A program made the position numbers and the translations under genes. A stretch of DNA of 36,147 nt from Lentisphaerota bacterium (GTDB lineage Bacteria > Verrucomicrobiota > Kiritimatiellia > PWTM01): the NCBI GenBank assembly GCA_016873715.1, contig VGWF01000038.1, forward strand, positions 1-36,147. The letters run 5' to 3'. The notes under the pieces are model-generated. The model saw nothing but the letters and a program-made list of their open reading frames with translations. It had not been told where the DNA came from and searched no databases. Shown here piece by piece: positions 12,808 to 22,253 of the stretch; position 1 is the stretch's first letter; every line of letters begins with the position of its first letter.

Positions 12808-13644
12808 CTATCCGTCCGATGCCTTCCGGCCTTCCGGTGCCGGACGCCCCAGGCGGGCGAGAACCTGGAGCATGTCGTTCCACACGTCCCAGTAGCGGGC
12901 CTTCTCGTCGCCCCCGCCCCGCAGCAGGTAGGACGGGTGATAGGTCGGCATCACCGGGATGCCGCGGTAGGTCTGCCACTGCCCGCGCAGGCGGCTGATC
13001 CCCTTGAGGCCGAGGAGACCGAAGACGGCGGTGGCCCCGAGGCAGACGATGGCCTTCGGGGCGAGGGCGGCGATCTGCTCCTCGAGGTAAGGGATGCAGG
13101 TCCGCATCTCCTCCTCCGTCGGCGGGCGGTCCTTGCGCATCGCGAAGTCCTCCGTCGGCCGGCACTTCACGATGTTCGCGATGAAGACGTCCTCGCGCGC
13201 GAATCCCATGCGGATGATGAGCCGGGTCAGCAGCTGGCCCGCCCGCCCGACGAAGGCCAGCCCCTGGCGGTCTTCGTCCGCCCCGGGGCCCTCCCCGACG
13301 AACAGGAGTTCGGCGCGCGGGTTCCCCTGGCCGGGGACCGTCCGGGTGCGCGTGCGGTGCAGGGGGCAGAGCGTGCACGATGCGATGCGGCGGGCGACGG
13401 CCTCCAGGCCGCCGGCCGGCTCGGTCGCCGCATCGCGCGGAGAGGCGGGCAGCGCCGCGGGCGTTGCGGGGCGGCTCCGGGCCGGTGCCGCCCGGCGCGG
13501 CGGGGGCTCGGCGAGCCGTGCGACGTCGTCCGCCGGCGTCTCGACGGTCCGCATGCCCTCCGACTTCTCGAACTCGGCCCAGCGGGCCAGGTCGTCGGCG
13601 ATGGCGGCCAGTTCCCGGCGCGGACGGGGTTCCGTCGGTGTCAT
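12808..13644 (-). CDS. Family 4 (iron-sulfur) uracil-DNA glycosylase
   Basis: This enzyme removes uracil from DNA as the first step of base excision repair. The 278-residue protein has a disordered Pro/Ala/Arg-rich N-terminal region (about 1-90) and then the UDG domain. Four Fe4S4 ligands are visible as CTLC (about 113-116), VKCRP and RTCIP. The active-site motif [20 protein letters not shown] fits family 4 (GExPGxxED...PFVGxAG), and HPSYLLR is the C-terminal HPS(Y/A) motif. The start at 13644 is preferred over a longer reading because a promoter-like element lies directly upstream. No Shine-Dalgarno is present, in keeping with a leaderless mRNA. It is divergent from pilT. Confidence 0.92.
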
Positions 13645-13652
13645 GGGGCGGC

Positions 13653-13681
13653 ATTGTCGGGGCAGGGGAGGGCCGCGGCAA
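13653..13681 (-). promoter_or_regulatory. Leaderless-type promoter of the UDG gene
   Basis: On the minus strand TTGCCG (13681-13676), 17 bp, GACAAT (13658-13653), then the C-rich discriminator GCCGCCCC running directly into the ATG at 13644. The -10 box ends 8 bp before the start codon. Confidence 0.5.
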
Positions 13682-13716
13682 GCCGTTTTCCTCCGTCTCC
13701 GGGGCAACGATTCGCT

Positions 13717-13745
13717 TTGCGGTTTTCCGCGATACCGGATAAAAG
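13717..13745 (+). promoter_or_regulatory. pilT: Leaderless-type promoter of pilT
   Basis: TTGCGG (13717-13722), 17 bp, TAAAAG (13740-13745). The -10 box ends 6 bp before the ATG at 13752, so the transcript should begin at that codon. This is the only obvious vegetative promoter for the pilT-secretin-pilB-pilC run. Confidence 0.55.
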
Positions 13746-13751
13746 ATGCGC

Positions 13752-14825
13752 ATGGCTGCTGTCAACATCACGGCCCTGCTCGAAGACATGGTCCGCCGGG
13801 GGGCCTCGGACCTGATCCTGACCGTCGGGGCGCCGCCCCAGATGCGCATCCACGGCCAGATGCAGCCGGTGCGTCCCGAGGTGCTGGATCCGCCGGACAC
13901 GCGGGCCGTGGCCGACCTGCTGATGAACGACCGCCTGCGCGGCGTCTTCGAGGCCAAGGGCAGCGCGGACTTGGCGACGTCGCTGCCGTCGGGCATCCGG
14001 TTCCGCGTCCACGTCTTCCGCCAGCAGGGTTCGGTCGCGCTGGCGCTCCGCCAGATCTCGTCGAAGATCCCGTCCTTCGAGAGCCTCGGCCTGCCGGAGG
14101 TCGTCCGCGATTTCGCGACGGCCCCGTTCGGCCTGGTGCTGGTGACCGGGCCGGCGGGCAGCGGCAAGTCGACGACGCTGGCGGCGATGATCGATCACAT
14201 CAACCGCCACCGGCAGGGGCACGTCATCTGCATCGAGGACCCGATCGAGTACGCGCACCGGCACGGCGGCTGCACGATCGAGCAGATCGAGATCGGCGAG
14301 GATGCCCCTTCGTTCACCGATGCGTTGCGCAACGTGTTCCGGCAGACGCCGGACGTGATCATGGTCGGCGAGATGCGCGACCTCGAGACGATCGCGCTCG
14401 CGCTGACGCTGGCCGAGACCGGCCACCTGATCCTGGCGACGCTGCACACGCAGGACACCTCGAACGCCGTGAACCGCATCGTCGACACGTTCCCCGCCGA
14501 GCAGCAGGAGCAGATCCACATGCAGCTGTCGATGTCGCTCGTCGGCATCATCTCGCAGCAGTTGATCATCGCGCGGGAACGCGACCGGCGCGTGCTGGCG
14601 TGCGAGGTCCTGCGGGCGACGAGCGCCGTGCGGAACCTGATCCGCGAGGGCGCCGTGCAGCAGCTGTACTCGGTCCTGCAGACCAGCCGCAGCGACGGCA
14701 TGCAGTCGATGGAGGAGTCGCTGCGGCAGCTCCACACCCACGGGTTCATCACGGAGGAGCAGGCGCTCAGCCGTTCGTCGAAGCCGAAGGAGATGATGCG
14801 CATGATCCGGACGAGGGTCGGATGA
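13752..14825 (+). CDS. pilT: Type IV pilus retraction ATPase PilT
   Basis: PilT is the cytoplasmic hexameric ATPase that powers pilus retraction. The 357-residue protein has the N-terminal PAS-like domain ([18 protein letters not shown]), Walker [10 protein letters not shown] (about 133-141), Asp box, Walker [10 protein letters not shown], His box LATLHTQDT and the PilT-specific C-terminal AVRNLIREG element. The last is needed for retraction and argues for PilT over PilB-type extension motors. The start at 13752 ([14 protein letters not shown]) is chosen over the ATG at 13746 because the latter lies inside the promoter discriminator and neither has a Shine-Dalgarno. The stop overlaps the downstream secretin start by 4 bp. 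Confidence 0.93.
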
Positions 14826-16345
14826 GGGAGGCGCTCCGAGTGAAGACGACGATGATCCGGTTCGCTGCCCGTGCGGTGTCGGTGGCCGTGGCGCTGGCCG
14901 CGACGGCCCGCGGCCAGGACGCGGCCCCCGCCGCGCCGGCGGCCGAGGCCCCGGCGGCGCCTCCCGCCGCGGACGCGCGCGTCACGCTGGCGATCGAGGA
15001 GGGCGACATCCAGCAGGTGCTCACCGCCTTCTCGCGGCAGACGGGGCGCAACATCGTCATCGGCCCCGACGTCCGGGGGCCGGTGACCGTCCGCGTCAGC
15101 GACGTGGCGTGGCAGACGGCGCTCGATGTGATCCTCCGCCCGTACGGGTTCGCCTACGAGGTCGTCGGCGACGCCGTCATCGTGATGAAAGCCGACGCCG
15201 TCAAGGCCCCGGCGACCCCCGAGGGGACGGCGGTGTTGACGATCGCCACCGAGGTTCGCGTGTTCATCCTGAAGTACCTCGATGCGTCGGACCTCGAGGA
15301 GGTGGTCAAGTCGCAGCTCAGCCCGCAGGGCAGCATCGTCGTCCTCCGCCCGCTGGGGCAGTACTGGGAGCCCGAGTCGTCCTCGTCCGGCGGGGGGAGC
15401 ATGTCGAAGTCGGGCCCGGACTCCGCCCTCGCCCGCGGCCGGCGCACGCAGGAGTCGAAGGAGGTTGTCCGGAGCAAGCGGTTCATCGTGAGGGACACGG
15501 CGGCGTCGCTCAAGGTCGTCGCCGACCTCGTGGCGCAGCTGGACGTCCAGCCCGACCAGGTCCTGATCGAGGCGCGCTTCGTCGAGGTGAGCTCGAACTT
15601 CGCCCGCGACATCGGGCTGGAACTCAACGGCGGCGGGACGTTTCTCAACGGCAACCAGGTGCAGAGCCTCTCCGGTCAGTCCGGCACCCTCCGGGCCGAG
15701 CCGCGCATCTTTCCCCCGGACACCCCGTACCCCTCGGTGCTGCCCTTCAACACGGGCGGCACGCTGTTCTTCCAGCAGCTGACCGACATCCAGTTCAGCG
15801 TCCTCCTGCACATGATCGAGGACGAGCGCTCCGCCAACGTCCTGTCCTCCCCGCGCATCATGACGCTGAACAACCAGGAGGCGCGGATCATCATCGGCGA
15901 GAAGTTCCCGATCGTCGAGGTCAGTTCCGTTCCCACGACGACCGGCATCGAGAAGACGGTCACCCTCGACTACTACGAGAAGATTGGCATACAGCTTGCT
16001 GTGGTACCCCAGATCTGCGCGAGCAACCGCATCGGGATGATCGTCCGGCCCTCGGTGACGTCCAGGACCTCGCTGGTCGAGGAGATCTACCCGGTGCTGT
16101 CGACCCGCGAGGCGGAGACCCAGATCATGCTGCAGAGCGGCGACACGGTGGTGATCGGCGGCCTCGTCAAGGACGAGGACCGCGCCGAGCAGTACCGCGT
16201 CCCGTTCCTCAGCCAGATTCCGCTTCTCGGCCGGCTCTTCCGCCGCGATGCCGGCGCGAAGGACAAGATCGACCTCCTGATCTTCCTGACGGCGACGATC
16301 CACGCCGAGGGATCCGGGACCGCGGGGTTCGCGACGCCCCGCTGA
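14822..16345 (+). CDS. pilQ: Secretin (PilQ/GspD family outer-membrane channel)
   Basis: The outer-membrane secretin through which the pilus leaves the cell. It is 507 residues, short for the family. It has a signal peptide (to about residue 30), an Ala/Pro linker, an N0/STN-type domain (about 50-122, with [20 protein letters not shown]), one N1-type domain ([18 protein letters not shown]), a Ser/Gly-rich loop, and the secretin barrel (about 240-500) ending in the signature [16 protein letters not shown] (about 459-474). The ATG at 14822 overlaps the pilT stop (ATGA); a GTG at 14840 with GGGAGG in front is a good alternative. No AMIN domain is seen, so PilQ versus GspD rests on the pilT/pilB neighbourhood. 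A patch of rare codons around 15984-16005 is unlike the rest of the gene. Confidence 0.88.
15984..16000 (+). promoter_or_regulatory. Intragenic sigma-54-like promoter in the secretin gene
   Basis: TTGGCATACAGCTTGCT has GG (15986-15987) and GC (15998-15999) separated by exactly 10 bp. TGGCA and TTGCT match the -24/-12 consensus (TGGCACG-N4-TTGCW) at 10 of 12 defined positions. It points toward pilB, 367 bp downstream. The codons across it (ATT, ATA, CTT, GCT and, just after, GTA) are rare in this otherwise GC3-rich gene. Confidence 0.45.
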
Positions 16346-16366
16346 GCGAAGGAGATGGCTCCCGAG

Positions 16367-18133
16367 ATGGCGGACAACGGACAGCTTCAGGCCGACACCC
16401 TGGGCTCCCGCCTGCCGCCGCGGGCCCGCCGCCTTTGCGCGACGCTGGTCGAGACCGGCCGGCTGACGCCCGAGCAGGTCGATCGCGCCGCGGAGGTCAG
16501 CCTGGGGACCGCGCGGCCGATCGAGGCGGTGATCGTCGACCTGGGCTACGCGAGCGCCGAGGACGTCGTCCGCGCCGTGTCCCGGCAGCAGAACATCCCC
16601 TTCTTCGATCTCGGGCCCGAATTCAAGCTCCAGCCGGAGGAGGTCGCCCTCGTTCCCGAGAAGATCGCCCGGCGCTACGGCCTGATCCCGGTCTGCAAGC
16701 CCGGGGACGCCTTCGTCACGCTGGTGATGAAGGACCCGCTGAACCTCGCGGCCGTGGACGCGGTCCGGTCGCTGACCTCGATGGAGGTCCGGCGCGCGGT
16801 CAGCCTGGAGGAACGGATCCTCCGGGTCATCGAGCGCGAGTACCGCCCGGACGCGCACATCGAGAGGAATCTCAAGGACATCGTCGAGATGGAGGTCGGC
16901 ACCGAGGCCGCGGAGACGGAGGCGGCGGCCCTCGACGCGGAGCAGCTCAAGGTCATCGCGAACGACGCGCCCGTCGTGAAGTTCGTCAACCTGATGCTGA
17001 TGCAGGCCGTCCGCGACCGCGCCAGCGACATCCACCTCGAGCCCGGGGAGAAGGACGTCCGCATCCGGTTCCGCATCGACGGCGTGCTTCGCCAGGTGAC
17101 GCCGCCGCCGAGGCGCCTGTACCCGGCGATCGTCACGCGGTTGAAGATCCTGTCCGAGATGGACATCTCCGAGCGCCGACTCCCGCTCGACGGACGCCTC
17201 AAGTTCCGCGTCTTCAGCCGGGAGATCGACGTCCGCGTCTCGTCGCTGCCGCTGGTCAACGGCGAGAAGATCGTCATGCGAATCCTCGACCGCAGTTCGC
17301 TCGTCGTCGACATGGCGAAGATCGGTTTCGATTCCCGGATGCTCTCCCGTTTCCAGCGGGTCCTCCAGGAGCCCAACGGGATCATCCTGCTGACGGGCCC
17401 GACGGGCAGCGGCAAGACCACGACCCTCTACAGCGCCCTGAGCTACCTCAACCACCCGGACGTCAACATCCAGACCGTCGAGGACCCGGTCGAGTACGTT
17501 CTCGAGGGCATCAACCAGACCCACGTGCGCGCGAAGATCGGCATGACCTTCGCCAGCGCCCTCCGGGCGATCCTCCGGCAGGACCCGGACATCTGCCTCA
17601 TCGGCGAGATCCGCGACGAGGAGACCTCGCGCATCGCGATGCAGGCCTCGCTGACCGGCCACCTGGTGCTGAGCACGCTTCACACGAACGATGCGCCGTC
17701 GTCCTTCAGCCGCTTGCGCGACATCGGCGTCGAGCCGTTTCTCGTCGCGGCGACCGTGAAGCTCGTCATCGCCCAGCGGCTGGTCCGCCTCATCTGCAAG
17801 TTCTGCAAGCAGGAGACCACGCTGACCGACGAGCAGAAGGAGATCCTCTCCAACGTCTGCCCGGAGGCCGTGGACTGGCCGCACTACAAGGGCGCCGGAT
17901 GCGATGCGTGCAACCATACCGGGTACAAGGGCCGCCAGGGCGTCTTCGAGTTCCTCGAGGTCAACAACCCGATCCGCCAGCTGATCCTCCAGAAGGCCGG
18001 CGACGTGACGATCCGCGAGATGGCGATCAAGCAGGGGATGGAGACGCTGGTCGTGAACAGCCTCCGCAAGCTGAAGGACGGCGTCTCCACGATGGAGGAA
18101 GTCATGACGGTCTGGCCGATGGAGGACGAGTAG
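16367..18133 (+). CDS. pilB: Pilus extension ATPase PilB (GspE family)
   Basis: PilB powers pilin polymerisation at the inner membrane. The 588-residue protein has an N-terminal MshEN/T2SSE_N domain (about 20-165, LTPEQVDRAAEVSLGT...IPFFDLGPEF) and the AAA-type motor. Motor landmarks are ASDIHLEP, Walker A GPTGSGKTTT (about 345-354), VEDPVEY (Asp box), Walker B CLIGEIRDEET (about 412) and His box LSTLHTNDA. Two zinc-binding CxxC pairs follow, CKFC (about 477) and CDAC (about 512), typical of PilB/GspE and absent from PilT. AAGGAG ends immediately before the ATG at 16355, too close to serve it, so the ATG at 16367 (12 bp spacing) is chosen. Gap to the secretin is 21 bp and to pilC 6 bp. Confidence 0.93.
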   Translation: MADNGQLQADTLGSRLPPRARRLCATLVETGRLTPEQVDRAAEVSLGTARPIEAVIVDLGYASAEDVVRAVSRQQNIPFFDLGPEFKLQPEEVALVPEKIARRYGLIPVCKPGDAFVTLVMKDPLNLAAVDAVRSLTSMEVRRAVSLEERILRVIEREYRPDAHIERNLKDIVEMEVGTEAAETEAAALDAEQLKVIANDAPVVKFVNLMLMQAVRDRASDIHLEPGEKDVRIRFRIDGVLRQVTPPPRRLYPAIVTRLKILSEMDISERRLPLDGRLKFRVFSREIDVRVSSLPLVNGEKIVMRILDRSSLVVDMAKIGFDSRMLSRFQRVLQEPNGIILLTGPTGSGKTTTLYSALSYLNHPDVNIQTVEDPVEYVLEGINQTHVRAKIGMTFASALRAILRQDPDICLIGEIRDEETSRIAMQASLTGHLVLSTLHTNDAPSSFSRLRDIGVEPFLVAATVKLVIAQRLVRLICKFCKQETTLTDEQKEILSNVCPEAVDWPHYKGAGCDACNHTGYKGRQGVFEFLEVNNPIRQLILQKAGDVTIREMAIKQGMETLVVNSLRKLKDGVSTMEEVMTVWPMEDE

Positions 18134-18139
18134 CCGGCC

Positions 18140-19381
18140 ATGGCGGGTTTCACCTACGTCGCGCGAAACCAGGCCGGGCAGGTGGTCCGCGCCGCCCTCG
18201 ATGCGGCCGACCGGCAGGACGCCCTGTCCCGGCTTCGCGCCATGGGCCTCATCGTGGTCGACCTGGCGGCGCAGGGCGAGGCGCCCGCCGCCGCATCCGT
18301 CCGTCCCGCCGCCAAGACCCGCCGGCCGCTGTTCAGGATGGAGAAGTCGATCTCGACGTCCGAGAAGTCGGTTTTCTGCCGCCAGCTCTCCATCACGGTG
18401 AACGCCGGCATGCCGCTGCGCGACGCGCTCGAGTCGATCGCCAACGACATGGACCATCCCACGTTCCGCAAGGTGCTGCTCGCCGTGGTCGCCCGGCTGC
18501 ACCAGGGCGAGTCGTTCTCCCATTCGATCGAGCGGTTTCCCCAGCATTTCAGCACGCTGTTCGTGGCGCTCGTGCGCGCCGCCGAGGAGTCGGGGAGCCT
18601 CCCGGAGACCCTCGACCAGCTCGCCGGCTACATGGAACGCAGCGAGAAGCTGATCAAGAAGATCAAGGCGGTCACCTCCTACCCGATGTTCATCCTCGTC
18701 TTCTTCCTGATCGTCAGCGTCGTCATGACCGCCTTCGTACTGCCCAAGTTCATGGACAGCTTCAAGGGATTCGACGTGGTCCTGCCGCCCCTGACCCGGT
18801 TCGTGTTCGGGATGAACGCCTTCGTCCTCGGCCACTGGTACTGGTTCGTCGGCGCGATCGTCGTTCCGGTCGTGAGCGCGCTGCTCTACCGCCGCAACCC
18901 GAAGGGACGGTACAATCTCGATGCCGCGGTCCTCAAGCTGCCCTTCTTCGGGGTCTGCATCCGCGAATTCGCCCTGGCCCGCTTCTGCCGCAATCTCTCC
19001 ATCATGCTCCGCGGCGGCGTCGGAATCACGACGGCCATGGACATCACCTCGGCGGTCAGCGGGAACGTCGTCATCGTGGAGTCCATGCTCAAGGCCAAGG
19101 AGCGGATCCTGAGCGGGGAGCGCATCGCGGCCAGCCTCGCGAAGGACAAGGAAGTCCCCAAGCTCATCATCCGCATGGTCGGCGTCGGCGAGGAATCCGG
19201 ACGCCTTCCGGAAGTGCTTGACAAGGTTGCCACGTTATACGAAGAATACGTTGAAAACCGGATCGTGACCGCGACGTCGATGTTCGAGCCGGTCGTCATC
19301 TGCCTGTTCGGCGGCGTGGTTCTGGTCCTCGTTCTTGCGATCTATCTGCCGATCTTCACGGTCTCCCAGGGCGTGAAGTAG
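18140..19381 (+). CDS. pilC: Inner-membrane platform protein PilC (GspF family)
   Basis: PilC is the polytopic inner-membrane protein on which the PilB motor assembles the fibre. The 413-residue protein starts with the small FTYVARNQAGQVVRAALDA domain. Two homologous T2SSF domains follow (about 75-195 and 275-400), each with the FCRQLSITVNAGMPLRDALE or FCRNLSIMLRGGVGITTAMD pattern. Membrane segments lie near 190-215, 230-255 and at the C-terminus (VVICLFGGVVLVLVLAIYLP). Length is normal. No strong Shine-Dalgarno is seen, and with 6 bp after pilB it is probably translationally coupled. It ends the motor/platform block; the pilin genes follow after 292 bp. Confidence 0.93.
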   Translation: MAGFTYVARNQAGQVVRAALDAADRQDALSRLRAMGLIVVDLAAQGEAPAAASVRPAAKTRRPLFRMEKSISTSEKSVFCRQLSITVNAGMPLRDALESIANDMDHPTFRKVLLAVVARLHQGESFSHSIERFPQHFSTLFVALVRAAEESGSLPETLDQLAGYMERSEKLIKKIKAVTSYPMFILVFFLIVSVVMTAFVLPKFMDSFKGFDVVLPPLTRFVFGMNAFVLGHWYWFVGAIVVPVVSALLYRRNPKGRYNLDAAVLKLPFFGVCIREFALARFCRNLSIMLRGGVGITTAMDITSAVSGNVVIVESMLKAKERILSGERIAASLAKDKEVPKLIIRMVGVGEESGRLPEVLDKVATLYEEYVENRIVTATSMFEPVVICLFGGVVLVLVLAIYLPIFTVSQGVK

Positions 19382-19474: not shown

Positions 19475-19603
19475 CGATCGAATCGCCCCGCCTTTCATAA
19501 TCGCCCCCGCTTGTTTCTCATTTATGGGAAAGGAAAGGCCCCGGCGCTCCGGTTTCCCGGGCGCCCGACAGACTGCGATCCCGGCATCGTCGAATCCGGG
19601 GAG

Positions 19604-19620
19604 TTGGCACGGCGCCTGCT
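19604..19620 (+). promoter_or_regulatory. Sigma-54-type promoter of the first pilin gene
   Basis: TTGGCACGGCGCCTGCT: GG (19606-19607) and GC (19618-19619) are 10 bp apart, the -24 box TGGCACG is perfect and the -12 box CTGCT has 4 of 5 matches. Transcription would start near 19631, leaving a 43-nt leader with the purine-rich ribosome site. Pilin genes of many bacteria are controlled by RpoN with PilR, so the location is as expected. Confidence 0.6.
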
Positions 19621-19673: not shown

Positions 19674-20129
19674 ATGAACCGGAACAAGGTTGGCGGGAAG
19701 AGCGGGGCGGCGCGTGCGTCGCGGGCCGGCTTCACGCTGGTCGAGTTGATGGTCGTGGCCGTCATCGTGGCGATCCTGGCGGCGGTTGCCATCCCCCTGA
19801 TGACCGGCGGCAAGAAGAAGGCGATGGCCTCCGAGGCCGATTCTTCGCTGGGCGCCGTCAGGGCCTGCCTGCGTGCGATGTACGCGGAAACGCGGAACTA
19901 CTCCAAGGACCCGAACGGCAACACGATCCAGGCGGGGGATCCCCTGACGTCGATCCCGGGGGTCTCCGTCGGCGATCTCGAGGGCAAGTACTTCAAGGAA
20001 TCGGATTACGATGTCGCGTCGATTTCGGCGTCGGCCTACTCCCTGCGCTGCAGGGGGAGCACCGGCGAGGTGTCCGGGGTGACGATCACGCTGGACCAGG
20101 GCGGGACGTTCATCAGGACGGGACTTTGA
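19674..20129 (+). CDS. Type IV pilin, first of three tandem paralogues
   Basis: A 151-residue prepilin. The 19-residue basic leader ends RASRAG and is cleaved before F, giving mature FTLVELMVVAVIVAILAAVA with the essential Glu5. The globular part (about 110 residues) has LRAMYAETRNYSK, IPGVSVGDLEGKYFKE and a C-terminal strand region ending IRTGL, shared with the next two genes. Two Cys (ACLRAMY and LRCRG) could form a disulfide; the second pilin has none and the third only one. The start at 19674 is set by the leader; GAGAGAAAGAAAGG lies upstream. A sigma-54-like promoter precedes it. Pseudopilin (T2SS) use cannot be excluded, but pilT and pilB nearby favour pili. Confidence 0.88.
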   Translation: MNRNKVGGKSGAARASRAGFTLVELMVVAVIVAILAAVAIPLMTGGKKKAMASEADSSLGAVRACLRAMYAETRNYSKDPNGNTIQAGDPLTSIPGVSVGDLEGKYFKESDYDVASISASAYSLRCRGSTGEVSGVTITLDQGGTFIRTGL

Positions 20130-20326: not shown

Positions 20327-20746
20327 ATGAAACTGCGCACGAGTAAGAAGGGGTTCACGCTGGTTGAGTTGATGGTCGTCGCCGTGATCGTGGCGATCCT
20401 GGCCGCCGTGGCCATCCCGCTGATGAGCGGCAACAAGAAGCGCGCGATGGCGACCGAGGCCGAGGCGGCGCTGGGCAGCGTCCGTACGGCCCTCCGCGCG
20501 ATGTACGCGGAGACGAAGGCCTACGACAAGGATCCGAACGGCACCACGATCTCGGGCAGCGTGACGAACATCCCGGGCGTGACGGCGGAAGACCTCGAAG
20601 GCAAGTACTTCAAGGCCGCCAACTACTCGATCGAGTCGATCTCGACGAGCAGCTACTCGATCCAGGCCGTCGGCAGCACCGGCGAAGTGAACGGTGTGAC
20701 GATCAAGCTGAACCAGGACGGTAACTTCACCCGTACCGGCCTGTAA
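20327..20746 (+). CDS. Type IV pilin, second paralogue, likely the major pilin
   Basis: A 139-residue prepilin with the shortest leader of the three: MKLRTSKKG, cleaved before FTLVELMVVAVIVAILAAVA (Glu5 present). The mature chain is about 130 residues and contains no cysteine. Shared blocks are LRAMYAETKAYDK, IPGVTAEDLEGKYFK and the C-terminal FTRTGL. The ATG at 20327 was chosen because an upstream in-frame ATG at 20285 would put a perfect GC hairpin inside the coding region and a long Arg-rich extension on the leader. Its own strong terminator and its structured leader suggest abundant, separately controlled mRNA, which is why I favour it as major pilin; this is inference. Confidence 0.88.
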   Translation: MKLRTSKKGFTLVELMVVAVIVAILAAVAIPLMSGNKKRAMATEAEAALGSVRTALRAMYAETKAYDKDPNGTTISGSVTNIPGVTAEDLEGKYFKAANYSIESISTSSYSIQAVGSTGEVNGVTIKLNQDGNFTRTGL

Positions 20747-21302: not shown

Positions 21303-22253
21303 ATGGTCTATCGCGAGACAGTGGCGGGCGTGGACATCAGCGACGGCGGCGTCGCCGTCGCCTGCGTCGTCCCGCGCCGGGGCGGGGGGCTGGGCGTCAC
21401 GCACGCCGGCTACGCCGACATCCCCGGGGACGCGAAGGACGCGGATGTTGCCGCCATCGTCCGGTCCGTGTGGAAGCAGGCGGCCATCCCCACCTACACC
21501 GTGGCTTCGTGCCTGAACACGGGATCCCTCCTGCTCCAGTACTTCCACTACCAGAACCTGTCGGAGGACGAAACGCGGTCCGCCCTGCGGCTCGAGGCCG
21601 AGGAGTCGCTCCAGGTCCCGGCGAAGGACCTCCTGTTCGACTGGCACGGCGCGGAGACCGGGGGGGCGTCCTCGGACCGGGCCCCGGCCCGCGAGGGCGT
21701 GCTCGTCGCGGCCCCGCGCGCCGCCGTCGACCAGCACCGCGCCATCCTGGCCTCGGCCGGCCTCTACCCGGTCATCCTCGACGTCGGCGCCCTGGCCGTC
21801 TGCAACCTCTGGATGCGGATCGACGGCGCCCGGCTCCGCGACGAGGTCGTCTTCGCGGTCAATCTCACCCGCCAGAGCGCCCACCTCGTCATCCTCGCGT
21901 CGGATGGCCGGGTGTACCCCCGCACCATCGTGTGCGGGTCCGCCGACTGGGGTTCCTCGATCGACTACCTCATCGACAACATCACCGGCCAGGAGGACTA
22001 CGCCGAGACGAAGCTGGGCCTTCCACCCGTCCGCCGCATCCTGATGACGGGGTCCATCCCCGGGGGCGGCGCTTTTCTCGAGAAGATCCGGAGCCGCCTC
22101 GCCCATCCCGTCGAGGGATGGACGCCGATGGCGGGGGAGCATGTCAGCGTGGCGCGCCGGGCCTCGCGCCTGAAGACGGATCCCGACCTGGCCCGCCGCA
22201 TGACCGTCAGCCTGGGCCTCGCCCTGAGGGGGTTCGACCGTGACGGCGTTTAG
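21303..22253 (+). CDS. pilM: PilM-like actin-fold pilus assembly ATPase
   Basis: PilM is the cytoplasmic actin-like member of the PilMNOP alignment complex and binds the N-terminus of PilN. The 316-residue protein begins with the phosphate-binding-type AGVDISDGGVAVACVV. It has EETxxALRLEAEESLQVP-like helices (EDETRSALRLEAEESLQVPA), then LASAGLYPVILDVGALAVCNLW, characteristic of the PilM family. The late GSIPGGGAFLEKIRSRL is the second nucleotide loop region. Slightly shorter than typical PilM (about 350). The stop overlaps the next gene by 14 bp, and the next gene's Shine-Dalgarno (GAGGGGG) lies inside pilM. Confidence 0.82.
   Translation: MVYRETVAGVDISDGGVAVACVVPRRGGGLGVTHAGYADIPGDAKDADVAAIVRSVWKQAAIPTYTVASCLNTGSLLLQYFHYQNLSEDETRSALRLEAEESLQVPAKDLLFDWHGAETGGASSDRAPAREGVLVAAPRAAVDQHRAILASAGLYPVILDVGALAVCNLWMRIDGARLRDEVVFAVNLTRQSAHLVILASDGRVYPRTIVCGSADWGSSIDYLIDNITGQEDYAETKLGLPPVRRILMTGSIPGGGAFLEKIRSRLAHPVEGWTPMAGEHVSVARRASRLKTDPDLARRMTVSLGLALRGFDRDGV

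Follow-up and report, generated by a model that had tools for sequence, protein, structure and literature searches.

The secretin gene of a type IV pilus operon carries on its coding strand a candidate intragenic sigma-54 (RpoN) -24/-12 element, TTGGCATACAGCTTGCT (positions 15984–16000, plus strand), picked out by a position-specific scoring matrix, a class-derived matrix and a strict pattern, with a predicted transcription start at about 16011. This element is probably a lineage-specific intragenic RpoN promoter that drives pilB and pilC and has left its imprint on the codon choice of its host gene; as a kind, intragenic sigma-54 promoters are already known.

The window, which is the whole stretch of 36,147 nucleotides analysed here, is contig C38 of a 5.1-Mb genome assembled in 289 contigs. 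Its plus strand encodes, in order, pilT, the secretin, pilB, pilC, three tandem pilins and pilM. The retraction ATPase gene pilT (13746–14825; TIGR01420 over the cut-off) lies upstream of the site. The host gene (14852–16345) encodes a secretin of PilQ/GspD type with Pfam Secretin, STN and Secretin_N domains, the NCBIfam GspD and PilQ models scoring below their cut-offs; the open reading frame listed at 13094–16345 is over-extended on its 5' side, the true start lying near 14852. The proposed first target is pilB, the extension ATPase gene (16355–18133; T2SSE and MshEN, TIGR02538 at 604.9 bits), which begins about 344 nt after the predicted start, and the proposed second target is pilC, encoding the platform protein (18140–19381; two T2SSF domains). 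The pilin gene pilA1 (19674–20129; N_methyl) is followed by its two paralogues near 20333 and 20855 and then by pilM (21303–22253), all on the plus strand. The genome encodes RpoN (Sigma54_DBD, E=1.4e-58, G000:C129) and has three strong Sigma54_activat loci for enhancer-binding proteins (on C111, C85 and C76); rpoN was found in all 36 class genomes tested.

A rare-codon patch in the secretin gene

Codons ending in A or T make up only 24 of the 498 codons of the secretin gene, and five of those 24 fall within the eight consecutive codons ATT GGC ATA CAG CTT GCT GTG GTA (15983–16006, plus strand). The break in the pattern of G/C third positions claimed by the sequence-only reading is borne out on the scale of the genome, and more strongly than that reading proposed. 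Codon rarity was scored for every eight-codon window, required to have flanks low in A/T third positions, and with a score of 9.43 the patch ranks first of 172,661 windows (283,139 codons of its own genome), the runner-up scoring 8.64. The own-genome tests covered 1.23 Mb of the 5.1 Mb, sampled as stretches. When a subset of 96,543 codons was resampled synonymously, 0.05 windows as extreme as the patch were expected.

In ATT, ATA, CTT and GCT, four of the five rare codons, the wobble base sits on an informative position of the sigma-54 motif. ATA is the rarest Ile codon and the sole one to supply the purine of the motif, and the synonymous choice at motif positions departs from the genome norm with P of 1.4e-7 for this peptide, given own-genome codon usage. 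The argument from rare codons and the argument from the motif are not independent, because the wobble-position T creates the match. The fifth rare codon, GTA, falls just downstream of the motif, which does not account for it. A 14-bp near-palindrome of chance-level quality, CTGTGGTACCCCAG (15999–16012), lies over the predicted -12 to +2 positions and is completed by GTA.

Strength of the sigma-54 element

The GG-N10-GC spacing and the agreement with TGGCACG-N4-TTGCW at 10 of 12 positions are both as previously claimed, though the spacing alone is no evidence, since GG is forced by Gly (GGN) and GC by Ala (GCN), and 10/12 matches are common. Two further 10/12 matches occur in the window, both inside pilT, and a better plain-consensus match (11/12) lies at 19605, ahead of pilA; in the genome, matches with up to two mismatches number 299, below the reversed control. 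Plain consensus counting was therefore rejected as a criterion. The two pilT sites (14217 and 14259) were likewise rejected, the first scoring 11.8 and the second below 11, with neither conserved.

Scored with a matrix built from 42 E. coli intergenic-sense sigma-54 ChIP sites (PMC4591121), spacer omitted, TTGGCATACAGCTTGCT reaches 17.22, the highest score among 2.47 million positions in the 1.23 Mb of its own genome and above that of 32 of the 42 training sites; with the reversed matrix no position attains this score. A class-derived matrix places the element tied first at 19.45, with the reversed control reaching up to 16.8. A third matrix, derived from five pilA sites, was over-fitted and was dropped. 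Across 40 synonymous resamplings of the 283,139 codons, the mean number of sites as strong as TTGGCATACAGCTTGCT was 0 in the sense and 0.025 in the antisense orientation. The matrices and the class survey described below were chosen once the finding had been seen.

The strict pattern TGGCAYRN4TTGCW has three matches in the whole 5.1-Mb genome, and TTGGCATACAGCTTGCT is among them. The other two are near-perfect sigma-54 elements in intergenic positions, ahead of an Hsp20 gene and of a type III glutamine synthetase gene (L154:1539–1555 and L155:1518–1534, on contigs C15 and C16). Type III glutamine synthetase genes belong to a class of target typical of RpoN. By a rough estimate, base composition alone would give about three strict matches per genome, so the count is in itself no evidence; the evidence lies in the position of the site and its codon cost. 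RNA folding at the secretin site gave a z-score of 0.00, and Rfam, terminator and sigma-70 scans there returned nothing notable, including no Rfam family.

Comparison with related genomes

The sequence-only reading had proposed that relatives with the same peptide would keep the nucleotide string, and this prediction fails. Among 29 aligned secretin homologues from the class, none retains the string. The three nearest genomes (G006, G002 and G007; secretins 62–66% identical) retain the peptide KIGIQLAVV exactly, which the homologue alignment identifies as a conserved secretin motif, and encode it with ATC GGG/GGT ATC CAG/CAA CTG/TTG GCG/GCC, giving 6/12 motif mismatches each; the remaining aligned homologues have at least four mismatches. 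Rare codons at the patch position occur in none of the aligned relatives, and the pilT-secretin-pilB-pilC regions of the three nearest genomes contain no sigma-54 site. These results rule out an ancestral site. They are compatible with a lineage-specific one, because the three genomes, although of the same family, belong to a different genus and have no pilins after pilC. The secretin site is thus not a conserved intragenic sigma-54 promoter, and appears instead to be specific to its lineage. With one genome to represent its own genus, any selection on the site is a presumption. Taken alone, the absence of the string in relatives would read as a refutation, a view that was changed by the genome-wide rank tests. 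The earlier claim that selection acts on the DNA is supported in so far as two genome-wide outliers, one of codon choice and one of motif score, coincide in 17 bp; the absence of the string in relatives counts against it.

If chance is the explanation, a run of rare synonymous mutations must have produced an outlier of rank 1 on two measures, with a resampling expectation near zero, on the correct strand of a fitting operon and in a genome whose other two strict matches resemble real promoters. We regard this as unlikely, even though several observations suit it: the string is absent in relatives, the GG and GC are amino-acid-forced, GTA is left outside the motif, 10/12 matches are easily found, the strict matches seen equal the approximate number expected, and the finding was selected from a 36-kb window after looking. 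The peptide IGIQLA is also predisposed to match, because four of its six codons carry fixed matching bases (GG, A, T and GC).

The reading as a lineage-specific promoter gains from the recurrence of sigma-54 sites around the operon elsewhere in the class. Across 46 class loci, 93 kb in all, the survey spanned the region from 300 bp before the secretin gene through to pilB. On the operon strand six sites score at least 15, that of the window included, as compared with none on the antisense strand and none with the reversed matrix. In family f32, nine operon-strand sites scoring at least 13 precede the secretin gene (L096:474, L205:806, L206:891, L210:840, L212:826, L213:885, L219:922, L220:840 and L223:267), versus none in three controls, and inclusion of weaker forms extends this to 11 of 15 genomes. 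These sites lie 30–55 bp before the secretin start, and no pilT gene is found directly upstream of the secretin there. Their common form is TTGGCA(T/C)(A/G)N4(T/A)TGCT, which contains both bases at which the window's element departs from the consensus (T in 7 of 11 sites and A in 4 of 11), so that the two mismatches are normal for the class. In a further genome, G017, the sigma-54-like site CTGGCACAGAAACTGCT (L084:2699–2715; score 16.0) falls within the secretin gene, at its low-complexity 3' end, and precedes pilB. Counting the orthologous f32 sites as one event, there are about three separate placements including that of the window. Upstream of pilT, no operon-strand sigma-54 site was found in 16 genomes. 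Among the papers searched, none dealt with sigma-54 in Kiritimatiellota.

The pilA sigma-54 element and its upstream dyad

The window contains a second sigma-54 element, overlooked in the sequence-only reading. This intergenic element ahead of pilA, TTGGCACGGCGCCTGCT (19604–19620, plus strand; 11/12, predicted start about 19631), scores 15.98 and ties for second among the 2.47 million positions with the E. coli matrix. Counterparts precede the first pilin gene in four family relatives, with scores of 15.5–18.0; in other families the regions upstream of pilA contain no sigma-54 site. In relatives of genus g3, second sigma-54-like sites occur downstream in the pilin clusters (L146:3980 and L147:4763, in minus-strand orientation, and L149:6330).

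An AT-rich dyad, TTTCTCATTTATGGGAAA (approximately 19514–19531, plus strand), has its centre some 82 bp ahead of the -24 element of pilA and is a candidate activator site. A spacing of 81–82 bp between the centre of such a dyad and the -24 element is shared by three genomes, namely that of the window, G006 (TTTTTCATTTTTGAAAAA) and G002 (TTTTTCAATTTTGACAAA); in the pilin promoters of other genomes the dyad is weaker or shifted. The 400 bp upstream of the secretin site contain no dyad of the pilA type, and inverted repeats upstream of that site include nothing convincing as an activator site. Because the dyad is missing there, binding without promoter function, or chance, retains some probability.

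RpoN holoenzyme might bind the secretin site and yield no useful transcript, acting as a parked closed complex, as a roadblock to read-through from pilT, or as tolerated noise. The lack of the dyad would be consistent with such binding, as would the situation in E. coli, in which most sigma-54 binding sites are intragenic, are less occupied than intergenic sites, and in many cases may be noise (PMC4591121). Simple noise does not explain the codon anomaly, however, and the orientation of the site and the recurrence of sites around pilB suit a promoter, making binding without a transcript decidedly improbable. Another role for the patch in DNA, RNA or translation (a different operator, ribosome pausing during synthesis of the secretin core, or a short tract converted from an A+T-richer homologue) is very improbable. 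In its favour are the position of GTA beyond the motif, its completion of the near-palindrome at 15999–16012, and the conservation of the peptide among secretins; against it, the palindrome is no better than chance would give, the fold and Rfam results are unremarkable, no relative has rare codons at the patch, and no donor for a converted tract is known.

Proposed mechanism and relation to known systems

Under the reading as an intragenic promoter, RpoN holoenzyme would bind 15984–16000 on the coding strand of the secretin gene, and an active enhancer-binding protein would then permit transcription from near 16011. The resulting mRNA would carry a leader of ~344 nt within the secretin gene and would cover pilB and pilC and possibly the pilins. 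Extension ATPase and platform protein could in this way be raised without PilT, in step with pilin produced from the RpoN promoter of pilA, and the rare codons would be the mark of selection that set wobble bases to the promoter consensus while the protein was kept. RpoN binding, transcription and the direction of the effect on pili are all inferred. The earlier proposal of an internal RpoN promoter for pilB-pilC is favoured by the presence of rpoN and of enhancer-binding proteins, by the orientation of the site toward these genes, and by recurrence in the class at shifted places, and is disfavoured by the conservation result. The main weaknesses of the promoter reading are the missing dyad, the GTA codon outside the motif, and the choice of tests after the fact.

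In E. coli, sigma-54 promoters that lie within genes in the sense orientation and give long leaders have been documented, for example inside yqeC, driving yqeB (Bonocora et al., 2015, PMC4591121). The secretin site resembles these in having a strong -24/-12 element within a gene, on the sense strand and separated from the next gene by hundreds of bases. Unlike them, it stands out in the codon usage of a gene with 95% GC3, lies in a type IV pilus operon, is not conserved between genera, and is a prediction from sequence. A second parallel is provided by the PilS-PilR/RpoN promoter of pilA in Pseudomonas, Geobacter and Dichelobacter; in P. aeruginosa, pilB expression also depends on PilR (PMC6058289). 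Common to both are type IV pilus genes under RpoN control, which in the present case is proposed, and the pilA gene of the window has a predicted promoter of this sort. The secretin site differs in its position within the secretin gene, from which it faces pilB-pilC, and in having no dyad upstream.

If the promoter reading is correct, selection can reshape codons to host a promoter while a conserved protein motif is kept, and the pilus operon is split such that the cell can increase extension independently of retraction. RpoN would then be a regulator of type IV pilus assembly that recurs in a largely uncultured class, and a search for extremes of codon rarity that overlap strong sigma-54 sites would offer a genome-only route to intragenic promoters. 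A broader generalization, plausible but tentative, is that where a G+C-rich genome shows an extreme patch of rare codons, a regulatory site has been built inside a protein-constrained gene; in the present case an RpoN promoter would have migrated into the secretin gene, where it would raise extension (pilB-pilC-pilA) without pilT, as RpoN sites hop around the operon across the class.

The closest parallel within the class is provided by the f32 sites, which share with the secretin site the motif form TTGGCAY-R, the operon and the direction. The f32 sites differ in being intergenic, 30–55 bp ahead of the secretin start, where they would drive the secretin gene as well. In three f32 loci the gene preceding the element resembles, by eye, a LuxR-type (HTH) regulator.
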